43,694 bases of DNA, from the NCBI GenBank assembly GCA_028693285.1, contig JAQUVQ010000021.1, positions 1 to 43,694 on the forward strand, written 5' to 3'. This stretch comes from Smithellaceae bacterium (GTDB lineage: Bacteria; Desulfobacterota; Syntrophia; Syntrophales; Smithellaceae). This document shows, piece by piece, positions 17,732 to 25,279 of this stretch. Below the pieces are notes generated by a model. That model was not told the DNA's origin. It did no database searches and worked only from the letters and a program-made list of their open reading frames with translations. The position numbers and the translations under genes are program-made. Position 1 is the stretch's first letter; the number at the start of each line of letters is the position of its first letter.

Positions 17732-17826
17732 GGTTCGTATTATACAGCCTCCGAAGGGGCGTCCCCGCGCGCAAAGGATCGGCGCCCGCATCGCCAAAAA
17801 AATAAATGAATAACAGGAGCATCCGC

Positions 17827-18903
17827 ATGCATGCCGTCATTATGGCCGGGGGAAGAGGAACAAGGTTCTGGCCGCGCAGCCGGGAAAAGAAGCCAAAGCA
17901 TCTGCTGGATATCGTCAGCGACCGGACGATCATTCAGGAAACCGTCGACCGGATCAAGCCGCTCATCAAACCCAAAAACATTCTGATCGTAACGGGGAAA
18001 AAACATGCGCGGGAGCTGATGAGACAATTGCCGGAAGTCCCCGCGAAAAACATCATTATCGAACCGGTCGGGCGAAACACGGCCGCCTGCATCGGGCTCG
18101 CCGCTCTCCACATTCAGAAAAAAGTCAAAGACGATGTCATGGTCGTTCTGCCGTCCGACCACGGCATCGCCGATCCTGCACGATACCGCAGCGTCATCGC
18201 CGCAGCGGCCCGGGCCGCCGAAAAGAAAAGCGCCCTGGTCACCATCGGCCTCACTCCCGCCAGCCCGCACACCGGGTTCGGCTACATGGAAGGCGGCGCT
18301 TCGGCAGGAAATGTTGCAGGCGAAAAGCTGCTGCGGGTCAAAGCGTTTCGCGAAAAGCCGAACCTGGAGCAGGCCCGGATCTTTCTGCAAAGCGGCAATT
18401 TTTTCTGGAACAGCGGCATGTTTATCTGGAATGCCTCAACCATCCTGAAAGAAATTGAAAAATTCCTGCCGGATCTGCATTCGGGGCTGATGACGATTAA
18501 ATCTTCTTTGGGAACATCTTCCGAAGCCCGAACGGTGTCAAAAATCTACAGAAGCCTCGCGTCCGTCTCCATCGACTACGGCGTCATGGAAAAAGCCAAA
18601 GACGTCTTCATGATTCCGGCCGGCTTCGGCTGGAGCGACGTGGGAAGTTGGGATACACTGTGGGAAATCTCCCAGAAGGACTTCAAAGGCAACGCGCTCG
18701 CGGGCGGTTCGCAGGCTATGTACGAGAACGCCGAAAACACGCTCGTATACAGCCCGAACAAGCTGGTGGCGCTCATCGGAATAAAGGATATCCTGGTGGT
18801 CGAAACGAAAGACGCCCTGCTGGTCTGCCAAAGAGGGCAGTCGCAGGACGTCAAGAAAATCGTGGACGCGCTGGAGGCAGAGGGAAAGCGTCAGTTGCTT
18901 TGA
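17827..18903 (+). CDS. manC: Mannose-1-phosphate guanylyltransferase
   Basis: 358 aa, the single-domain GDP-mannose pyrophosphorylase form without the C-terminal isomerase domain. Nucleotide-binding signature MAGGRGTRFWPRSREKKPKH at residues 6-25, then the sugar-nucleotide region (IEPVGRNTAACIGLAA, PSDHGI, FREKP) and FWNSGMFIWNA. It makes GDP-mannose from mannose-1-phosphate and GTP for O-antigen, capsule or glycan synthesis. ATG 17827 follows AGGAG by 7 nt. Its last 13 nt overlap, tail to tail, the minus-strand gene at 18891-19214. No other glycan genes are adjacent. Confidence 0.93.
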   Translation: MHAVIMAGGRGTRFWPRSREKKPKHLLDIVSDRTIIQETVDRIKPLIKPKNILIVTGKKHARELMRQLPEVPAKNIIIEPVGRNTAACIGLAALHIQKKVKDDVMVVLPSDHGIADPARYRSVIAAAARAAEKKSALVTIGLTPASPHTGFGYMEGGASAGNVAGEKLLRVKAFREKPNLEQARIFLQSGNFFWNSGMFIWNASTILKEIEKFLPDLHSGLMTIKSSLGTSSEARTVSKIYRSLASVSIDYGVMEKAKDVFMIPAGFGWSDVGSWDTLWEISQKDFKGNALAGGSQAMYENAENTLVYSPNKLVALIGIKDILVVETKDALLVCQRGQSQDVKKIVDALEAEGKRQLL

Positions 18904-19214
18904 GTTTCGGCGGGAAAAGCTTTCAGATAAACCGGCTTGTCCTGTACGGCAAAATCGCCTGCCCGCAGGGCTTTCATAATCACGTCCAGGTTGGTCTTTT
19001 CATCGTCAAAGGCAATCACCAGGCTGTTCGGTCTTTGCGTCTGATGTTTTTGAACCCCGTCAATTTTCTTCAGGATAGTCCCTATCCTTCGGTCGGCGCC
19101 TCACGAAAAACATCCGGGCACCTTCAACTGCACGATTCTCTCCGCCGCACCGGCCGCACCGACCGACAGCACCAGAAACAGAAATATCGCAACCAGCCTC
19201 TTCATTTTTCTCAT
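18891..19214 (-). CDS. Probable selenoprotein: secreted heavy-metal-associated (MerP-like) domain with CxxU motif
   Basis: Read from ATG 19214, one frame is open for 107 codons to TGA 18891-18893 except for a single in-frame TGA at codon 38 (19101-19103). Residues 1-24 are a signal peptide (MRKMKRLVAIFLFLVLSVGA). The mature part has QLKVPGCFS-[UGA]-GADRRIGTILKKIDGV and then LVIAFDDEKTNLDVIMKALR, the beta-alpha-beta pattern of HMA/MerP metal carriers. The TGA replaces exactly the second Cys of the CxxC metal site (C35-x-x-U38). A stem-loop follows at SECIS distance (19072-19088). The downstream frame keeps the HMA pattern to a normal end, unlike a decaying pseudogene. A sequencing error or true nonsense mutation cannot be excluded. 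Start could also be ATG 19205. Automatic callers would split it or miss it. Confidence 0.72.
19072..19088 (-). promoter_or_regulatory. Candidate bacterial SECIS stem-loop
   Basis: On the minus-strand mRNA a perfect 7-bp stem AGGAUAG/CUAUCCU with loop GGA lies inside the coding sequence, 19 nt from the in-frame UGA to the first loop base. Known bacterial SECIS rules (short stem, loop of 3-14 nt, a G in the first two loop positions, 16-37 nt from UGA) are all met. Confidence 0.65.
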
Positions 19215-19237
19215 CACACCATCCATGATTTATCACT

Positions 19238-19328: not shown

Positions 19329-19340
19329 CTACAGTCCACC

Positions 19341-19367
19341 ATTCACCATCCACGATTCACCATCCAC
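19341..19367. repeat. Short tandem repeat, two 13-nt units
   Basis: ATTCACCATCCAC occurs twice (19341-19353 and 19355-19367) with one base between. With the two palindromic repeats it makes 19215-19419 a repeat-rich, non-coding stretch. Confidence 0.55.
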
Positions 19368-19419
19368 CAATGAGCTTCCACTAAACCACGCTTCCGAAAA
19401 ACGCAATGCCAATTTCGAA

Positions 19420-19473: not shown

Positions 19474-20073
19474 ATGATTATGGTTCTGTCCCTGTCGTCT
19501 CCCCTGATCCTGGCCTCCGCCTCACCACGCCGGAGAGAACTGCTCCGTTCGGTCGGTTTGACGTTCAAAATCCGTCCGGCGGACGTGGATGAAACCGGCC
19601 TTCCGGATGAAAGCCCGCGCGCTCACGTTCGCCGGCTGTCCAGAGATAAAGCAGGCGCGATCGCCCATCAATACCCGAAAGCCCTGGTGCTGGGCGCGGA
19701 CACCATTGTGGTCATCGACGGCCGGATTCTGGGAAAACCCAAAAACAAAAAAGAGGCCCGTGAAATGCTGCAGCGGCTGAGCAGCCGGCGACACACCGTT
19801 TTGACCGGTTTTACGATCGCCTGCGTCCGTGCGGGAATGTCCAGAACAAAAATCGTCCAATCCACCGTGCAGTTTAAAAAAATCAGCCCTGAAGAAACGG
19901 CATGGTACGTCAATGGCGACGAGCCCTATGACAAAGCCGGCGGCTATGCGGCTCAGGGCAAGGGCGCGTCCTTCATTCAGGCCATCCGGGGCTCTTATAC
20001 CAATGTGATCGGGTTGCCGCTTTGTGAAGTCGTGGAAGAATTGAACCATTTGGGTGTCCTTCATTTCAGGTAA
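19474..20073 (+). CDS. maf: Maf family nucleoside triphosphate pyrophosphatase
   Basis: 199 aa. Starts with LILASASPRRRELLRSVGL, the Maf phosphate-binding signature, and continues with VLGADTIVVIDGRILGKP, holding the catalytic Asp, and EPYDKAGGYAAQGKGASFI near the end. Family members hydrolyse dTTP, UTP or modified nucleotides to monophosphates, either cleaning the pool or influencing septation. ATG 19474 is taken because AAAGAAAG precedes it; ATG 19480 is equally possible. The yggS-type gene follows after 5 nt, so the two are one operon. Confidence 0.92.
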   Translation: MIMVLSLSSPLILASASPRRRELLRSVGLTFKIRPADVDETGLPDESPRAHVRRLSRDKAGAIAHQYPKALVLGADTIVVIDGRILGKPKNKKEAREMLQRLSSRRHTVLTGFTIACVRAGMSRTKIVQSTVQFKKISPEETAWYVNGDEPYDKAGGYAAQGKGASFIQAIRGSYTNVIGLPLCEVVEELNHLGVLHFR

Positions 20074-20078
20074 AGACC

Positions 20079-20783
20079 ATGGCCGATGAAATCAAGACCA
20101 ATATTTTGAACATTCGCGAAAGAATCGCAGCGGCCGCAATCCGCGCGGGCCGCGACCCGGCGGGCATTCGTCTGATGGCGGTCTCCAAAACCGTGGAACC
20201 GGAACGCATCCGGCAGGCCCTGGATGCGGGAATCACGCTTTTGGGTGAAAACTACGTTCAGGAGGCCCGCGAGAAAATCCCCGTCGTCGGACGGCCTGCC
20301 GTATGGCACATGATCGGCCACCTGCAAACCAACAAGGTCAAGTATGTCGTCAACCTCTTTGATTGGATTCATTCGGTGGACCGTTTGGAACTGGCGCGGG
20401 AGTTGGATAAAAGAGCCGGCCAGCGCAGCCGACGGTTGAATGTGCTCATCGAGGTCAATGTCAGCGGCGAGGCATCGAAAAACGGCGCAGCGCCCGGGCA
20501 AGTTTTGGAACTGGTCCGTCAGATTTCCATCTTACCGAATGTAAGCGTGAGGGGTTTGATGACGATGCCGCCCTATTCCGATGATCCGGAAAATTCGCGC
20601 CCTTGTTTTATTGTGCTTCGTCAACTGCGCGATGAAATCGTTTCCGCCGCCCTTCCAGGCATTTCAATGGACGAACTCTCCATGGGCATGACGGATGATT
20701 TTGAAGTGGCCATTGAAGAAGGCGCCACCATTATCCGCGTCGGCCGCGCGATTTTCGGGGAAAGACGCTATTCGCCTCCATAG
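20079..20783 (+). CDS. PLP homeostasis protein (YggS/PLPBP family)
   Basis: 234 aa, single alanine-racemase-like TIM barrel. The PLP Lys is K37 in RLMAVSKTV; other family marks are GENYVQEAREK, WHMIGHLQTNK, IHSVDR, VNVSGEASKNG, GLMTMPP and LSMGMTDDFEVAI, followed by IRVGRAIFG. These proteins bind PLP without a known catalytic reaction and keep vitamin B6 and amino-acid pools balanced. It directly follows maf (5 nt). Its last 16 nt overlap, tail to tail, the end of the minus-strand RND-TolC fusion gene. Confidence 0.94.
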   Translation: MADEIKTNILNIRERIAAAAIRAGRDPAGIRLMAVSKTVEPERIRQALDAGITLLGENYVQEAREKIPVVGRPAVWHMIGHLQTNKVKYVVNLFDWIHSVDRLELARELDKRAGQRSRRLNVLIEVNVSGEASKNGAAPGQVLELVRQISILPNVSVRGLMTMPPYSDDPENSRPCFIVLRQLRDEIVSAALPGISMDELSMGMTDDFEVAIEEGATIIRVGRAIFGERRYSPP

Positions 20784-23700
20784 CGTCCGGTTAGGATTTG
20801 AAGGTCGGTCCAGGCCATGCGGTAGCTCAGCCGCGCGGCCAGCAGATCCGCTTCGGATTTCGCCAGGGCGGCCTTTGCCGCCAGCCAGTCCGCTTCCAGG
20901 TTCAGTCCGGCGGAAAACCGGTCGGTTTGAATTTTGAAATCTTCGCGGCGGTATGCAACGACTTTCCCGGCAACGCCGATCAATTGAGCGGCCTGCGTCA
21001 GTTTGCGCCTCGCTTTTTCCGTGTCGGCATGGACCTGTTCCCTGGTATTGGCCAGATTCTCCTCGGCCTGCTTTTTCAGAAAAATGCGCTGGCGGGTAAC
21101 GTAGGTGTTGGCGACCAGGTCCTGGAGATTCCAGTTCAAAACCACGCCGATAAACGCATCCCGCTTTTGCCACTGGGGATCCAGACCGAAGCCGGCGCTG
21201 ATAAACGAATACCGGATATCACCGGTAAAATCGGCTGCGCCGTGCTGGTAAACGTAGCCGCCCAGAATGCCTAAACTCGGCAGGTAGCTGTAGTGTCCGG
21301 CATCCACCGCGTGCTGCGCCTTCGTCTGATACAGCGCGGCGATTTTCAAATCCTGGTTCTCCTGCCGCCCGGAAACACCGTTTGTTGCGGCGCTCGGGTC
21401 CGCGTCGTCCACGGGCACGGGCGCAAGTGCAAAGGAGGCGGATTTTAAACCGGTCAGCCGCCTTAAATCGTCAAAATAATCGTCCATCTGGACGTTGATC
21501 TTGAGAAGGTTTTGCTCTTCGTCGGCGGCATTGGCCCTGAGACCGGTCAGGCTGGAGGGAGTCGTCTTGCCGGCCAGCACGGCGCTTTCCACGTCGTAGA
21601 GTTTTTTTTGGGCCAGATCCAGTCGGATTTGGGCCTCTTCCCTGCGCTTCTCCTGAATCAGCAGGCCGAAATAGAGTTTTTCGGCGGTCTGCTTCACCTG
21701 CAGCGTCGCTCTTGCCTGATCGGTTTTGGCGATTTCCAGATCCGTCTTGGACACATTGACCCCGGCCATGATTTTCGGAATCTGCGAGATGGGCTGATAC
21801 ATCAGCACTCCCGCCGTGTACGTGTCCGCGTGGCCCAGGTCCAGCGTCGTGTCGGCCGACGGCAGCGGAACACTGATCGGGCCGACGGCGACCTGGCCAA
21901 GCATTCCCCTCTTCAGCGACAGCTCACCGATGTTGCTGTTGTACTGATAGGCGCCGCCCACGATCAGCGACGGAAAGAATTTAACCCGGTCTTCGTACAC
22001 CTTCTGCTGTTTTTCCTGCACCTGAAGCTGCTTGATGGTTAAAAGCCGGTTGTTTTGCGCGGCCAGGTCGATCACCTTTTGCAGGTTCAAAGCTTCGGGA
22101 GGCTCCTGCGCTCCGGAAGGAAAAGACAGCAGGCAAACGGAAGCCAGGACAAGGATCATCAACTTCCTGCCCACGCTCAAAGCACCTTCTGCTTGCAGCC
22201 CGGCCGGCGTTTTCCGGTCCTGATCGACCGGCTTCATCAGGCAGGCGTACAGCACCGGCACTAAAAACAGGGACGTCACCATGGAAAGCATGATTCCCAC
22301 CGCGATCACGCTGGCGAGCGGGCTCCACAGCGGTGAGCCGGAAATGATCATGGGAATCACGCCGATGGCCGCCGCGCTGGCCGTCAGGAAGATGGGGCGC
22401 AGTCGCCTTTTTCCGGACTCGAGCGCGGCTGTCGCGACGGACGCGCCGCCGCGGCGCAGTTCATCGGCGTGGTCCAGCAGGATGATCGCGTTTCTCACCA
22501 CGATGCCGGAGAGGCTGATCAGGCCGACAAACGCGGTAAATCCGAACGGGTTGCCGGTCATCAGCAGCCCCAGCATGGCCCCGAACATGCTTAGCGGAAC
22601 GGTCAGCATGACGATCAGCGTTTCCTTCAGATTGCGGAACTGGAAAAGCAGGACCAGGAAAATCAAAAGGAGGCTGACAACCAGCGCCGTCAGCATTTCG
22701 GAGAAGGTTTCCTTCTGGTTTTCGTACTCGCCCCCGTATTCGATTTTGTAGCCCGCCGGCAGGGAAAGGTCTGCGATTCGCTGTCCGGCCATTTTCAGCA
22801 CCTGCGAGGCCAGATAGCCGTCCGCCGGTTCGCACTGCACGGTCAGCGTGCGCAGTCCGTTGAGATGGTTGATCCGGCCGCTTAGCCACTGCGGCTCCAG
22901 GGAGGCGATCTGGCGCAGCGGCACACCCGCTCCGGTCACGGGAGACGTCAGGTAAAGGTTTTCCACGTCGCCGAAATGCCTCCGGCTTTTTTCATCCAGA
23001 CGAAGCACGATGTCCACGGCCACATTCCCTTCGTAGAGCGTGGATACGGGAGCGCCGGTAAATCCGGCATAGATGGATTTGGCCACACTTTCGGTGGTAA
23101 ATCCCAGACGTTCGGCGCCGTCCTTGAGCCGGACGGCGACGCCGTAATAATCCTCCCGGCTGTCCAGGCGGAGAAAGGCGACGGCCCGCGTCTGCCGGAG
23201 AATATCCATGACCCGGTCCCCGATCTCCTTCAGTGTCGCGATATCGTCGCCGATGATCCGGATTTCCACGGAGGCGTTCGAGGGAACCCCCTGCTGGAGC
23301 AGACGGGCCTGGAGCCTGCCTTCCGGGACTGCCTCGTCGGCCCGCAGGTTCAACTCATGGCGCAGCCGCTTTGCGTCTTCATCGAGGCGCGTATTGACGA
23401 GAATCTGCGCGAAATTGGAAGCGGGGTTTCCCTGCGTGAAATTGTAGTAAAAGCGGGGAATGCTTGCGCCGACAAACGTCGCGAGGGAAACCACGTCGGG
23501 GTCGCGTTGAACCAAATCCTGAATTCCGCCGATCGCCTGCTCCGTTTTTTCCAGCTTTGTTCCGGTGGGCATCCACAAATCCACGATAAGCTGGTTGCGT
23601 TCGGCTTCCGGAAAAAATTTCTGCGGGAGGATCTGATACAGGACAACCGCCATTCCCATGGCCCCGAGGCACACCAGGATGGTCAGCCGTGAATGCGCCA

Positions 23701-25279
23701 TGCTCCAGACGATGGCGCGGTTGTAGCCGGACTGCATCAAGTTGAGCAGATTCATTTTCTTCCTGCCCGAAGATAAATCGCGCTCCTGATCGTGAAGACC
23801 TTTTTTGATAAAAGACAGGCACAAAATCGGCGTTAAAATCATGGCGACAAAAAAGGAGGACGCCAGGGCAATGGAGACGGTCAGCGGCAGAGCAATGATG
23901 AAATCTCTCACCATGCCCGACAGCAGGACCATCGGCAAAAAGGCGGCGATGATGGTGAGGGTCGCCGTCAGGATGGGCACCACCAGCTCGGTCGCGCTTT
24001 TCCAGGCGGCGGTTTTCGGCGGAACGCCGTTGTCTAAGAGCTCCACGTAATTGTCGGCGACAACAACCGCGTCGTCCACCACCATGCCCAGCACCACGAT
24101 CAGAGCCGAAAGAGAAACCTGGTGCAGTTCAATGCCGAAAAAATGCAGCAGGGCGAACGTCATCGCGACCGTCATGGGAATCGCCGTGGCGGCGACCGCG
24201 GCAACACGGAAAGGAAGCAGGAGAATGATGACCAGGATCACCGCGGCAATGGCCAGGACGAACTCAAACAGGAAGTGGCTGACATTCCGCTCTACGATTT
24301 TGGGCTGGTTGACGATCGTGGTCAGTTTGACCCCGGCCGGCAGCCATTGGGACGCTTCCGCGAGCTTCCGGTCCACCGCTTTTCCGAAGGCGACGATGTT
24401 GTATCCTTCGTGCATTTGAACGGCAAGCAGCATGCTGCTTTTGCCGTTGACGAAGATTTTGGACGACGGTTCCTCGTACTGTCTCTGAAGGCGGGCCACA
24501 TCCCGAAGGCGGACGACTTCGCCGGTTTTCGCGAAGCCGACGATCTGATCTCCGATTTGGGCTTCCGTTTTGTAGTATCCCTGCGTGTAAAGCGGGACGC
24601 GGACATCGGACGTTTTCAGGCCGCCGGCCGGACCGATCGTGTTTTGCGAGAGCAGGATCTTCATCACCTGGTCCAGCCGGACCCCGTAGAGCGCCAGCTT
24701 CGCGCTGTCGGTGTAAACGACAATCTGCTCCTTTTGCTCGCCGATGCGCTTGATTTTCGACACCTCTCTCATCGTCCGAAAGGTGTCTTCCAGTTTTTGC
24801 GCGTATTCCCGAAGCTGGGCGTATTGGGGCCGGTCCATTTCAATGGCGATCATCAGCGCTTCCGTGTCGCCGAACTCCGAGTTCACGATGGGACCATACA
24901 CCCCCTGCGGCAGGCTCAAGGCTTTCAGGACGTTCAGTTGATGGTTCAGCTTGCTCCAGAAGGTGTCAAAATTTTTGACGTCATTGTTCAGCCAGACGGT
25001 GATGACTGCCATGCCGTCCGAGGTCACGGAGGTCGTTTTCTCCTTTCGCACCTCCGCGTACTGGAACAGATGCTGCTCCAGCTTCCGGGTGACCTGCTCT
25101 TCCACCTGCAGGGCGTTGGCGCCGGGATACAGAGCGATCACCTGGCCCACGCGGATCTGGATCTTGGCGTCCTCGCGGCGAGGCATTGCCATCAGGGAAT
25201 ACACGCCGACCAGAAACGTCAGGGCCAGAATGGACAGGGTGACTTGCGGATATTTGAGCGATTTTTTTACAAAATTCAT
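20768..25279 (-). CDS. RND efflux pump fused to TolC-like outer-membrane channel
   Basis: 1503 aa in one uninterrupted frame. Residues 1-1020 are a complete AcrB-type permease with twelve membrane helices and two large periplasmic loops. Proton-relay residues D402-D403 in helix 4 (VVLGMVVDDAVVVADN) are present; the usual helix-10 Lys is Arg (SGIVVRNAIILLD). At about 1036-1060 a typical signal peptide appears (VGRKLMILVLASVCLLSFPSGAQ). It is followed by an outer-membrane-factor domain (about 1065-1503) with the two helical-barrel repeats of TolC family proteins, e.g. LNLQKVIDLAAQNNRLL and DLQILTGRYGGE. The internal peptide would act as a 13th membrane helix or be cleaved. A GTG at 22174 with AAGGTG 8 nt upstream could also start the channel separately. 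It overlaps the adaptor gene by ATGA. Confidence 0.9.
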   Translation of the reverse strand: MNFVKKSLKYPQVTLSILALTFLVGVYSLMAMPRREDAKIQIRVGQVIALYPGANALQVEEQVTRKLEQHLFQYAEVRKEKTTSVTSDGMAVITVWLNNDVKNFDTFWSKLNHQLNVLKALSLPQGVYGPIVNSEFGDTEALMIAIEMDRPQYAQLREYAQKLEDTFRTMREVSKIKRIGEQKEQIVVYTDSAKLALYGVRLDQVMKILLSQNTIGPAGGLKTSDVRVPLYTQGYYKTEAQIGDQIVGFAKTGEVVRLRDVARLQRQYEEPSSKIFVNGKSSMLLAVQMHEGYNIVAFGKAVDRKLAEASQWLPAGVKLTTIVNQPKIVERNVSHFLFEFVLAIAAVILVIILLLPFRVAAVAATAIPMTVAMTFALLHFFGIELHQVSLSALIVVLGMVVDDAVVVADNYVELLDNGVPPKTAAWKSATELVVPILTATLTIIAAFLPMVLLSGMVRDFIIALPLTVSIALASSFFVAMILTPILCLSFIKKGLHDQERDLSSGRKKMNLLNLMQSGYNRAIVWSMAHSRLTILVCLGAMGMAVVLYQILPQKFFPEAERNQLIVDLWMPTGTKLEKTEQAIGGIQDLVQRDPDVVSLATFVGASIPRFYYNFTQGNPASNFAQILVNTRLDEDAKRLRHELNLRADEAVPEGRLQARLLQQGVPSNASVEIRIIGDDIATLKEIGDRVMDILRQTRAVAFLRLDSREDYYGVAVRLKDGAERLGFTTESVAKSIYAGFTGAPVSTLYEGNVAVDIVLRLDEKSRRHFGDVENLYLTSPVTGAGVPLRQIASLEPQWLSGRINHLNGLRTLTVQCEPADGYLASQVLKMAGQRIADLSLPAGYKIEYGGEYENQKETFSEMLTALVVSLLLIFLVLLFQFRNLKETLIVMLTVPLSMFGAMLGLLMTGNPFGFTAFVGLISLSGIVVRNAIILLDHADELRRGGASVATAALESGKRRLRPIFLTASAAAIGVIPMIISGSPLWSPLASVIAVGIMLSMVTSLFLVPVLYACLMKPVDQDRKTPAGLQAEGALSVGRKLMILVLASVCLLSFPSGAQEPPEALNLQKVIDLAAQNNRLLTIKQLQVQEKQQKVYEDRVKFFPSLIVGGAYQYNSNIGELSLKRGMLGQVAVGPISVPLPSADTTLDLGHADTYTAGVLMYQPISQIPKIMAGVNVSKTDLEIAKTDQARATLQVKQTAEKLYFGLLIQEKRREEAQIRLDLAQKKLYDVESAVLAGKTTPSSLTGLRANAADEEQNLLKINVQMDDYFDDLRRLTGLKSASFALAPVPVDDADPSAATNGVSGRQENQDLKIAALYQTKAQHAVDAGHYSYLPSLGILGGYVYQHGAADFTGDIRYSFISAGFGLDPQWQKRDAFIGVVLNWNLQDLVANTYVTRQRIFLKKQAEENLANTREQVHADTEKARRKLTQAAQLIGVAGKVVAYRREDFKIQTDRFSAGLNLEADWLAAKAALAKSEADLLAARLSYRMAWTDLQILTGRYGGE

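Follow-up and report, generated by a model that had tools for sequence, protein, structure and literature searches.

The gene at positions 18891-19214 on the minus strand of the window (the whole stretch of 43,694 nucleotides that was analysed) encodes a small MerP-related protein of anaerobic sediment bacteria, exported by prediction, in which selenocysteine (Sec) occupies the place of the second metal-binding Cys. The gene is missed by gene finders because this residue is encoded by a stop codon. The computations covered conservation of the TGA, covariation of the SECIS element, the Sec machinery, the predicted fold, homology to MerP, the absence of MerT, and fusions and neighbours; from these we infer the insertion of Sec in the cell and the export and function of the product. 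Confidence was very high that the product is a selenoprotein with an HMA fold, a grading that applies to identity and fold and does not extend to function. The features of the locus were as follows.

18891-19214, minus strand: selenoprotein gene of 107 codons plus a terminal TGA stop; MerP-like product (HMA fold) with CxxU, exported by prediction
19101-19103, minus strand: in-frame TGA at codon 38, taken as selenocysteine (TGA in 78 and Cys in 3 of 81 homologues)
19101-19112, minus strand: CxxU motif (CFSU) at the place of the MerP CxxC metal site, from the alignment and the model
19146-19214, minus strand: likely signal peptide, residues 1-23, with AGA before AER, read from the sequence by eye
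19072-19088, minus strand: bacterial SECIS with a 7-bp stem (AGGATAG/CTATCCT) and loop GGA, from covariation, the loop G, the redraw control and the specificity of the pattern
17806-18903, plus strand: convergent manC (mannose-1-phosphate guanylyltransferase), from Pfam NTP_transferase and ManC beta-helix domains
19474-20073, plus strand: divergent maf-like gene (Pfam Maf, 2e-61)

Translation of the frame from 19214 to 18891 detected a sole internal stop, the TGA at 19103-19101, so that the original prediction of a minus-strand frame broken at codon 38 alone was exact to the base. With TGA read as U, the product is MRKMKRLVAIFLFLVLSVGAAGAAERIVQLKVPGCFSUGADRRIGTILKKIDGVQKHQTQRPNSLVIAFDDEKTNLDVIMKALRAGDFAVQDKPVYLKAFPAETQSN. 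A start at an alternative in-frame ATG at 19226, 12 nt upstream, is possible, but relatives begin MRK or MKK. A hydrophobic N terminus was also present in the homologues. Both positions of the CxxU motif were >90% conserved in the alignment, and in the structure model the motif sat at the start of helix 1.

In a six-frame search, 75 of 99 related genomes contained homologues, almost all of which had an internal TGA. At the position of codon 38, a search for Cys or Sec among the extracted homologues (n = 81) returned 78 with a Sec-type TGA and three with Cys. The TGA-containing homologues spanned ∼20 families of the order, and the lowest identity to the window protein was ∼25%. Apart from the TGA, the extracted frames were open, and the other frameshifts or stops in close relatives that had been named as evidence against the gene were not encountered in them. 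Values of dN/dS indicated that, in most close pairs, protein-level selection persists downstream of the TGA. The gene is short and the measure correspondingly noisy, and in a few close pairs the value after the TGA was ∼0.6. The C-terminal two thirds of the protein, which follows the TGA and contains most of the fold, was conserved.

All three Cys forms were found in genomes that also carry a Sec copy (L061 beside L038 in genome G030, L068 beside L053 in G022, and L086 beside L073 and L075 in G098); they had no hairpin and were nested within the Sec clade. Members with a CxU motif (L073, L074, L076, L081, L084, L085 and L087) had the TGA one codon earlier, and the hairpin was 3 nt more distant from it. 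A TGA without the first Cys was detected in L080 (GYDSU), L192 (SGGU) and L193 to L195 (GVVU), in which Tyr, Gly or Val was present instead.

The hairpin was located at 19088-19072, starting 12 nt past the TGA and with a TGA-to-loop distance of 19 nt; the 7-bp stem, GGA loop and spacings of the original prediction were thereby reproduced exactly. Among 48 distinct sequences, the conserved stem was 7 to 8 bp long, 90.6% of cells were paired and two-sided compensatory changes were observed in seven of eight pairs. The covariation score was 0.336 compared to 0.160 in shuffled alignments, none of 500 of which reached the observed value, and shifting the stem partner by 1 to 3 bases reduced pairing to 33 to 46%. 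The first base of the loop was G in 48/48 sequences. Redrawing of synonymous codons lowered the number of pairs per hairpin from 7.44 to 5.49 of 8, and at least seven pairs were present in 72 of 78 observed sequences but in no more than 21 of 78 after redrawing. Published rules for bacterial SECIS elements specify a loop of 3 to 9 nt, a stem of 4 to 16 bp, a G among the first two loop bases, a UGA-to-loop distance of 16 to 37 nt and a minimum free energy of -7.5 kcal/mol or lower (PMC13188914). The window hairpin lies within these rules, with a 3-nt loop, a 7-bp stem, G as the first loop base and a distance of 19 nt. The folding energy of the 48 nt after the TGA was -12.2 kcal/mol, and that of the hairpin alone, extended by a single base on either side, was -7.5 kcal/mol, exactly at the limit.

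The genome to which the window belongs contains selA (603 bits), selB (365 bits), a tRNA-Sec with anticodon TCA, and a selD gene that has its own in-frame TGA, in SAGUACKIGPGDL. The search for selA, selB, selC and selD that had been proposed as a check thus returned a full set. A full SelB was present in 90 of the 99 related genomes and in 67 of 68 relatives of good quality, the exception (G075) also being without the Sec-HMA gene. As SelB is near-universal among the relatives, including others without the gene, a co-occurrence test is uninformative. The conserved TGA, the covarying hairpin and the sel genes all agree with the proposal that Sec replaces the second Cys of a CxxC motif.

A collection of 257 Gb of genomes was scanned with the pattern TGY-N6-TGA-N12-AGGRTARGKNCTATCCT, which is blind to Cys forms. 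By our own arithmetic, ∼0.5 matches were expected by chance. There were 66 matches, and all 66 stretches carried a member of the Sec-HMA family; since many of these records duplicate the related genomes already searched, the count shows the specificity of the pattern and not independent occurrences. Many matching records were titled Smithella (including JAAZOZ010000112.1 and JAAZHX010000034.1, both Smithella sp.), Smithellaceae, Syntrophaceae or Syntrophales, and further matches came from Desulfobacterales, Desulfobacteraceae, one Desulfohalobiaceae genome and the complete genome of Desulfonema magnum 4be13.

The AlphaFold2 model of the window protein was a single HMA fold (mean pLDDT, 86) with the beta-alpha-beta-beta-alpha-beta order of elements. 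The top Foldseek match was oxidised MerP (PDB 1osd; E = 1.7e-4; TM score by target, 0.86), followed by copper-binding HMA domains and chaperones, which were tied with MerP by VIA-align Z score. The MerP model TIGR02052 matched the window copy with 41.1 bits (E = 2e-10), below its curated cut-off of 92.55; across the family it matched 74 of 75 members, the lowest E value being 2.3e-15. No match to the Pfam HMA model (PF00403) was obtained for the window copy, which did not reach the gathering score; E values of 0.01 or lower were obtained in 24 of 75 members, and both of the thioredoxin fusions described below scored above the cut-off. The HMA-type domain of the original prediction was therefore upheld by the predicted fold and by the MerP match but not by Pfam in the window copy.

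Comparison with MerP (TIGR02052; PDB 1osd and 1afi) identified one HMA domain, export (by prediction for the window protein) and two chalcogen ligands with CxxC-type spacing at the start of helix 1 as common features. The window protein differs in that Sec replaces the second Cys, within PGCxxU rather than the GMTCxxC of MerP, and in that the MerT partner is absent from its genome. On the tree, the Sec-HMA clade split from the Cys-MerP proteins and the UxxU protein L208 with an SH-aLRT value of 98; the Cys forms lay inside the Sec clade and required two changes from Sec to Cys. The inner forks were weak, as the alignment has just 77 columns. The separation of the clade from the UxxU protein suggested that Sec in HMA proteins probably has more than one origin.

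Several named families resemble this clade. NF041115 (seleno)proteins likewise have Sec at the HMA ligand positions, but they have two (UxxU) in comparison with the CxxU found here, and they group with Cys-MerP on the tree. Membership in NF041115 was rejected on the basis of this separation and the finding of no match above the 95-bit cut-off in the 99 related genomes. L208 itself contains two Sec (GMIUPAUP) and is of the NF041115 kind, with a score of 81.9 bits; as this is below 95, its own NCBIfam model would miss it. The putative mercuric transport selenoprotein (PF02411; ABB16073.1) has Sec in a C/SxxU motif, similar to the CxxU motif described here. That protein and NF045683 (MerT/CopZ fusion-like) are MerT-type membrane proteins or fusions, whereas the window protein has no MerT part; the NF045683 model (MerT_CopZ_Se) matched it with 12.6 bits, at the CopZ-like end alone, against a cut-off of 375. 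No NCBIfam model names the Sec-HMA clade, which is an unnamed clade of Syntrophales (Smithellaceae and others) and other Desulfobacterota.

The window gene is a solitary gene flanked by manC and maf. It lies tail to tail with manC in a gap of ∼570 bp that extends to maf, in agreement with the original prediction, to which can be added an overlap of 13 bp (18891-18903) between the 3' ends of the two genes. Among 73 distinct loci, manC adjoined the Sec-HMA gene in 49, maf likewise in 49, and both in 44, a placement that favours orthology and a solitary gene. Neither promoter- nor terminator-like sites were found around the window gene, and neither its surroundings in the window nor the conserved manC-maf locus contained a metal operon. 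A tandem repeat with a period of 14 (TCCACCATTCACCA; 2.5 copies), and also of 7, was observed at 19335-19369, between the Sec-HMA gene and maf, and a similar GGATGGTGGATGG run was present upstream of the Sec-HMA gene in L012. Elsewhere in the window, at 20768-25279 on the minus strand, a 1,503-amino-acid frame combined an AcrB-type RND pump (ACR_tran, residues 11 to 1013) with an OEP domain near the C terminus. An RND pump and an outer-membrane efflux protein are usually encoded by separate genes.

Other members were fused to, or adjacent to, genes for redox-type proteins. L074 and L085, both CxU members, had a C-terminal Thioredoxin_9 fusion. In the Desulfobacterales members L140, L160 and L163, the Sec-HMA domain was followed by PKD and rhodanese domains (Pfam), and the same fusion was recognized by eye in L179 (Desulfonema magnum). 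The active-site Cys of the L163 rhodanese is apparently missing. A Sec-containing DsbC-like gene was located 38 bp upstream of the Sec-HMA gene in L060. This DsbC-like gene had a UPYC active site, with the TGA at 2442 and a possible hairpin after it, and L060 therefore has two adjacent selenoproteins, both exported by reading. A SurA-like foldase gene was present 7 to 202 bp upstream in five loci, and a gene for a pyridine-nucleotide disulfide oxidoreductase was present 73 bp upstream in L076. P-type ATPase genes were seen by eye near the Sec-HMA gene in L082, L133 and L146.

In the proposed mechanism, SelB and Sec-tRNA(UCA) would decode the UGA of codon 38 as Sec, guided by the downstream hairpin. 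The product would be exported through its signal peptide and, according to the model, would fold as one HMA domain of the MerP/CopZ type, in which Sec, where helix 1 starts, stands in for the second ligand of an ancestral CxxC. Paired with Cys or by itself, Sec may then serve as a reactive selenol in the thiol redox or sulfur chemistry of the envelope, a role that we tentatively place ahead of metal binding and hold to be slightly short of an even chance. The thioredoxin and rhodanese fusions, the DsbC-like gene of L060, the SurA-type foldase, the oxidoreductase of L076 and the lack of MerT suggest this leaning. Against it, each redox-type partner is confined to one lineage, the window gene itself is solitary, P-type ATPase genes are close to three copies, and the nearest named relatives of the Sec-HMA clade bind metal. 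Metal carriage is the main role known for HMA folds.

The same selenoprotein could instead be a periplasmic binder of Cu(I), Hg(II) or Ag(I), in which Sec would raise the affinity and the metal would be passed to an exporter or trapped; this is a plausible reading that we would nonetheless not expect to prevail. It is consistent with the HMA fold, with MerP and copper chaperones as the closest solved structures, with the TIGR02052 matches in all but one member and with the P-type ATPase genes near three copies. It is at odds with the absence of a metal operon from the window and from the manC-maf locus, and with a ligand spacing that varies (CxU) and a Cys that has been lost in some members. 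Neither a two-ligand site nor an internal bond between Se and S is compatible with the loss of Cys in L080 and L192 to L195. MerT was not found in the window's own genome and was found in 1 of the 99 genomes searched; its absence from that genome and from 97 of the 98 others also counts against a metal binder and makes a classical mercury carrier, and hence a classical MerP role for the window protein, unlikely. A classical mercury operon was rejected as MerT was not found. The rest of the functional weight, beside the redox and metal roles, falls to neither.

With regard to the decoding of the UGA, it is very improbable that the codon is read as an ordinary amino acid or that a short UGA-terminated product is functional. 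The three non-TGA homologues carry Cys and not Trp, the hairpin obeys the bacterial SECIS rules and is missing from the Cys forms, and full SelB is widespread among the relatives; a short product would lack the conserved C-terminal two thirds. The view that the TGA is a sequencing error, or the frame a pseudogene in decay with a nonsense mutation, has nothing in its favour other than that the frame contains a stop and would be omitted by ordinary gene finding, and it is excluded for practical purposes by the identical TGA in dozens of separate, independent assemblies, the selection that most close pairs show past the TGA, the covarying hairpin and the Cys in all three non-TGA forms. A chance frame was rejected on the basis of the TGA conservation, the covariation and the occurrence of every pattern match within the family.

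A 2007 paper on the symbiont of Olavius algarvensis reportedly may contain the first Sec-MerP. In the 2008 selenoproteome of the Global Ocean Sampling expedition, a Sec-containing 'Mercuric transport protein MerP' was listed among previously described families (PMC2398784, Table 2), with two sequences from one sample and a text that gives neither motif nor sequence (PMC2398784). That entry is of the same kind, a Sec-containing MerP, and may belong to the Sec-HMA clade. Sec-MerP as a kind was thus already known in 2008. Sec-MerP is absent from the portion of the 2022 selenoprotein table that was consulted and from the 2026 table, in which MerT (C/SxxU) and UxxU relatives do appear. What is new here is the clade with its CxU and Sec-only variants and its thioredoxin and rhodanese fusions.

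These results add a conserved selenoprotein clade, found in roughly three of every four related genomes searched, that is hidden from annotation by its TGA. They place Sec in the ligand site of an HMA protein on a branch distinct from that of the UxxU selenoproteins. The three Cys forms that reside in the same genomes as Sec copies provide natural pairs for determining what selenium brings to the HMA fold. It is possible, at somewhat less than an even chance, that in one large clade of anaerobes an HMA fold has been turned into a Sec-based module for redox or sulfur transfer in the envelope, in some lineages without Cys. With the thioredoxin and rhodanese fusions, a redox role for an HMA protein can be tested directly.
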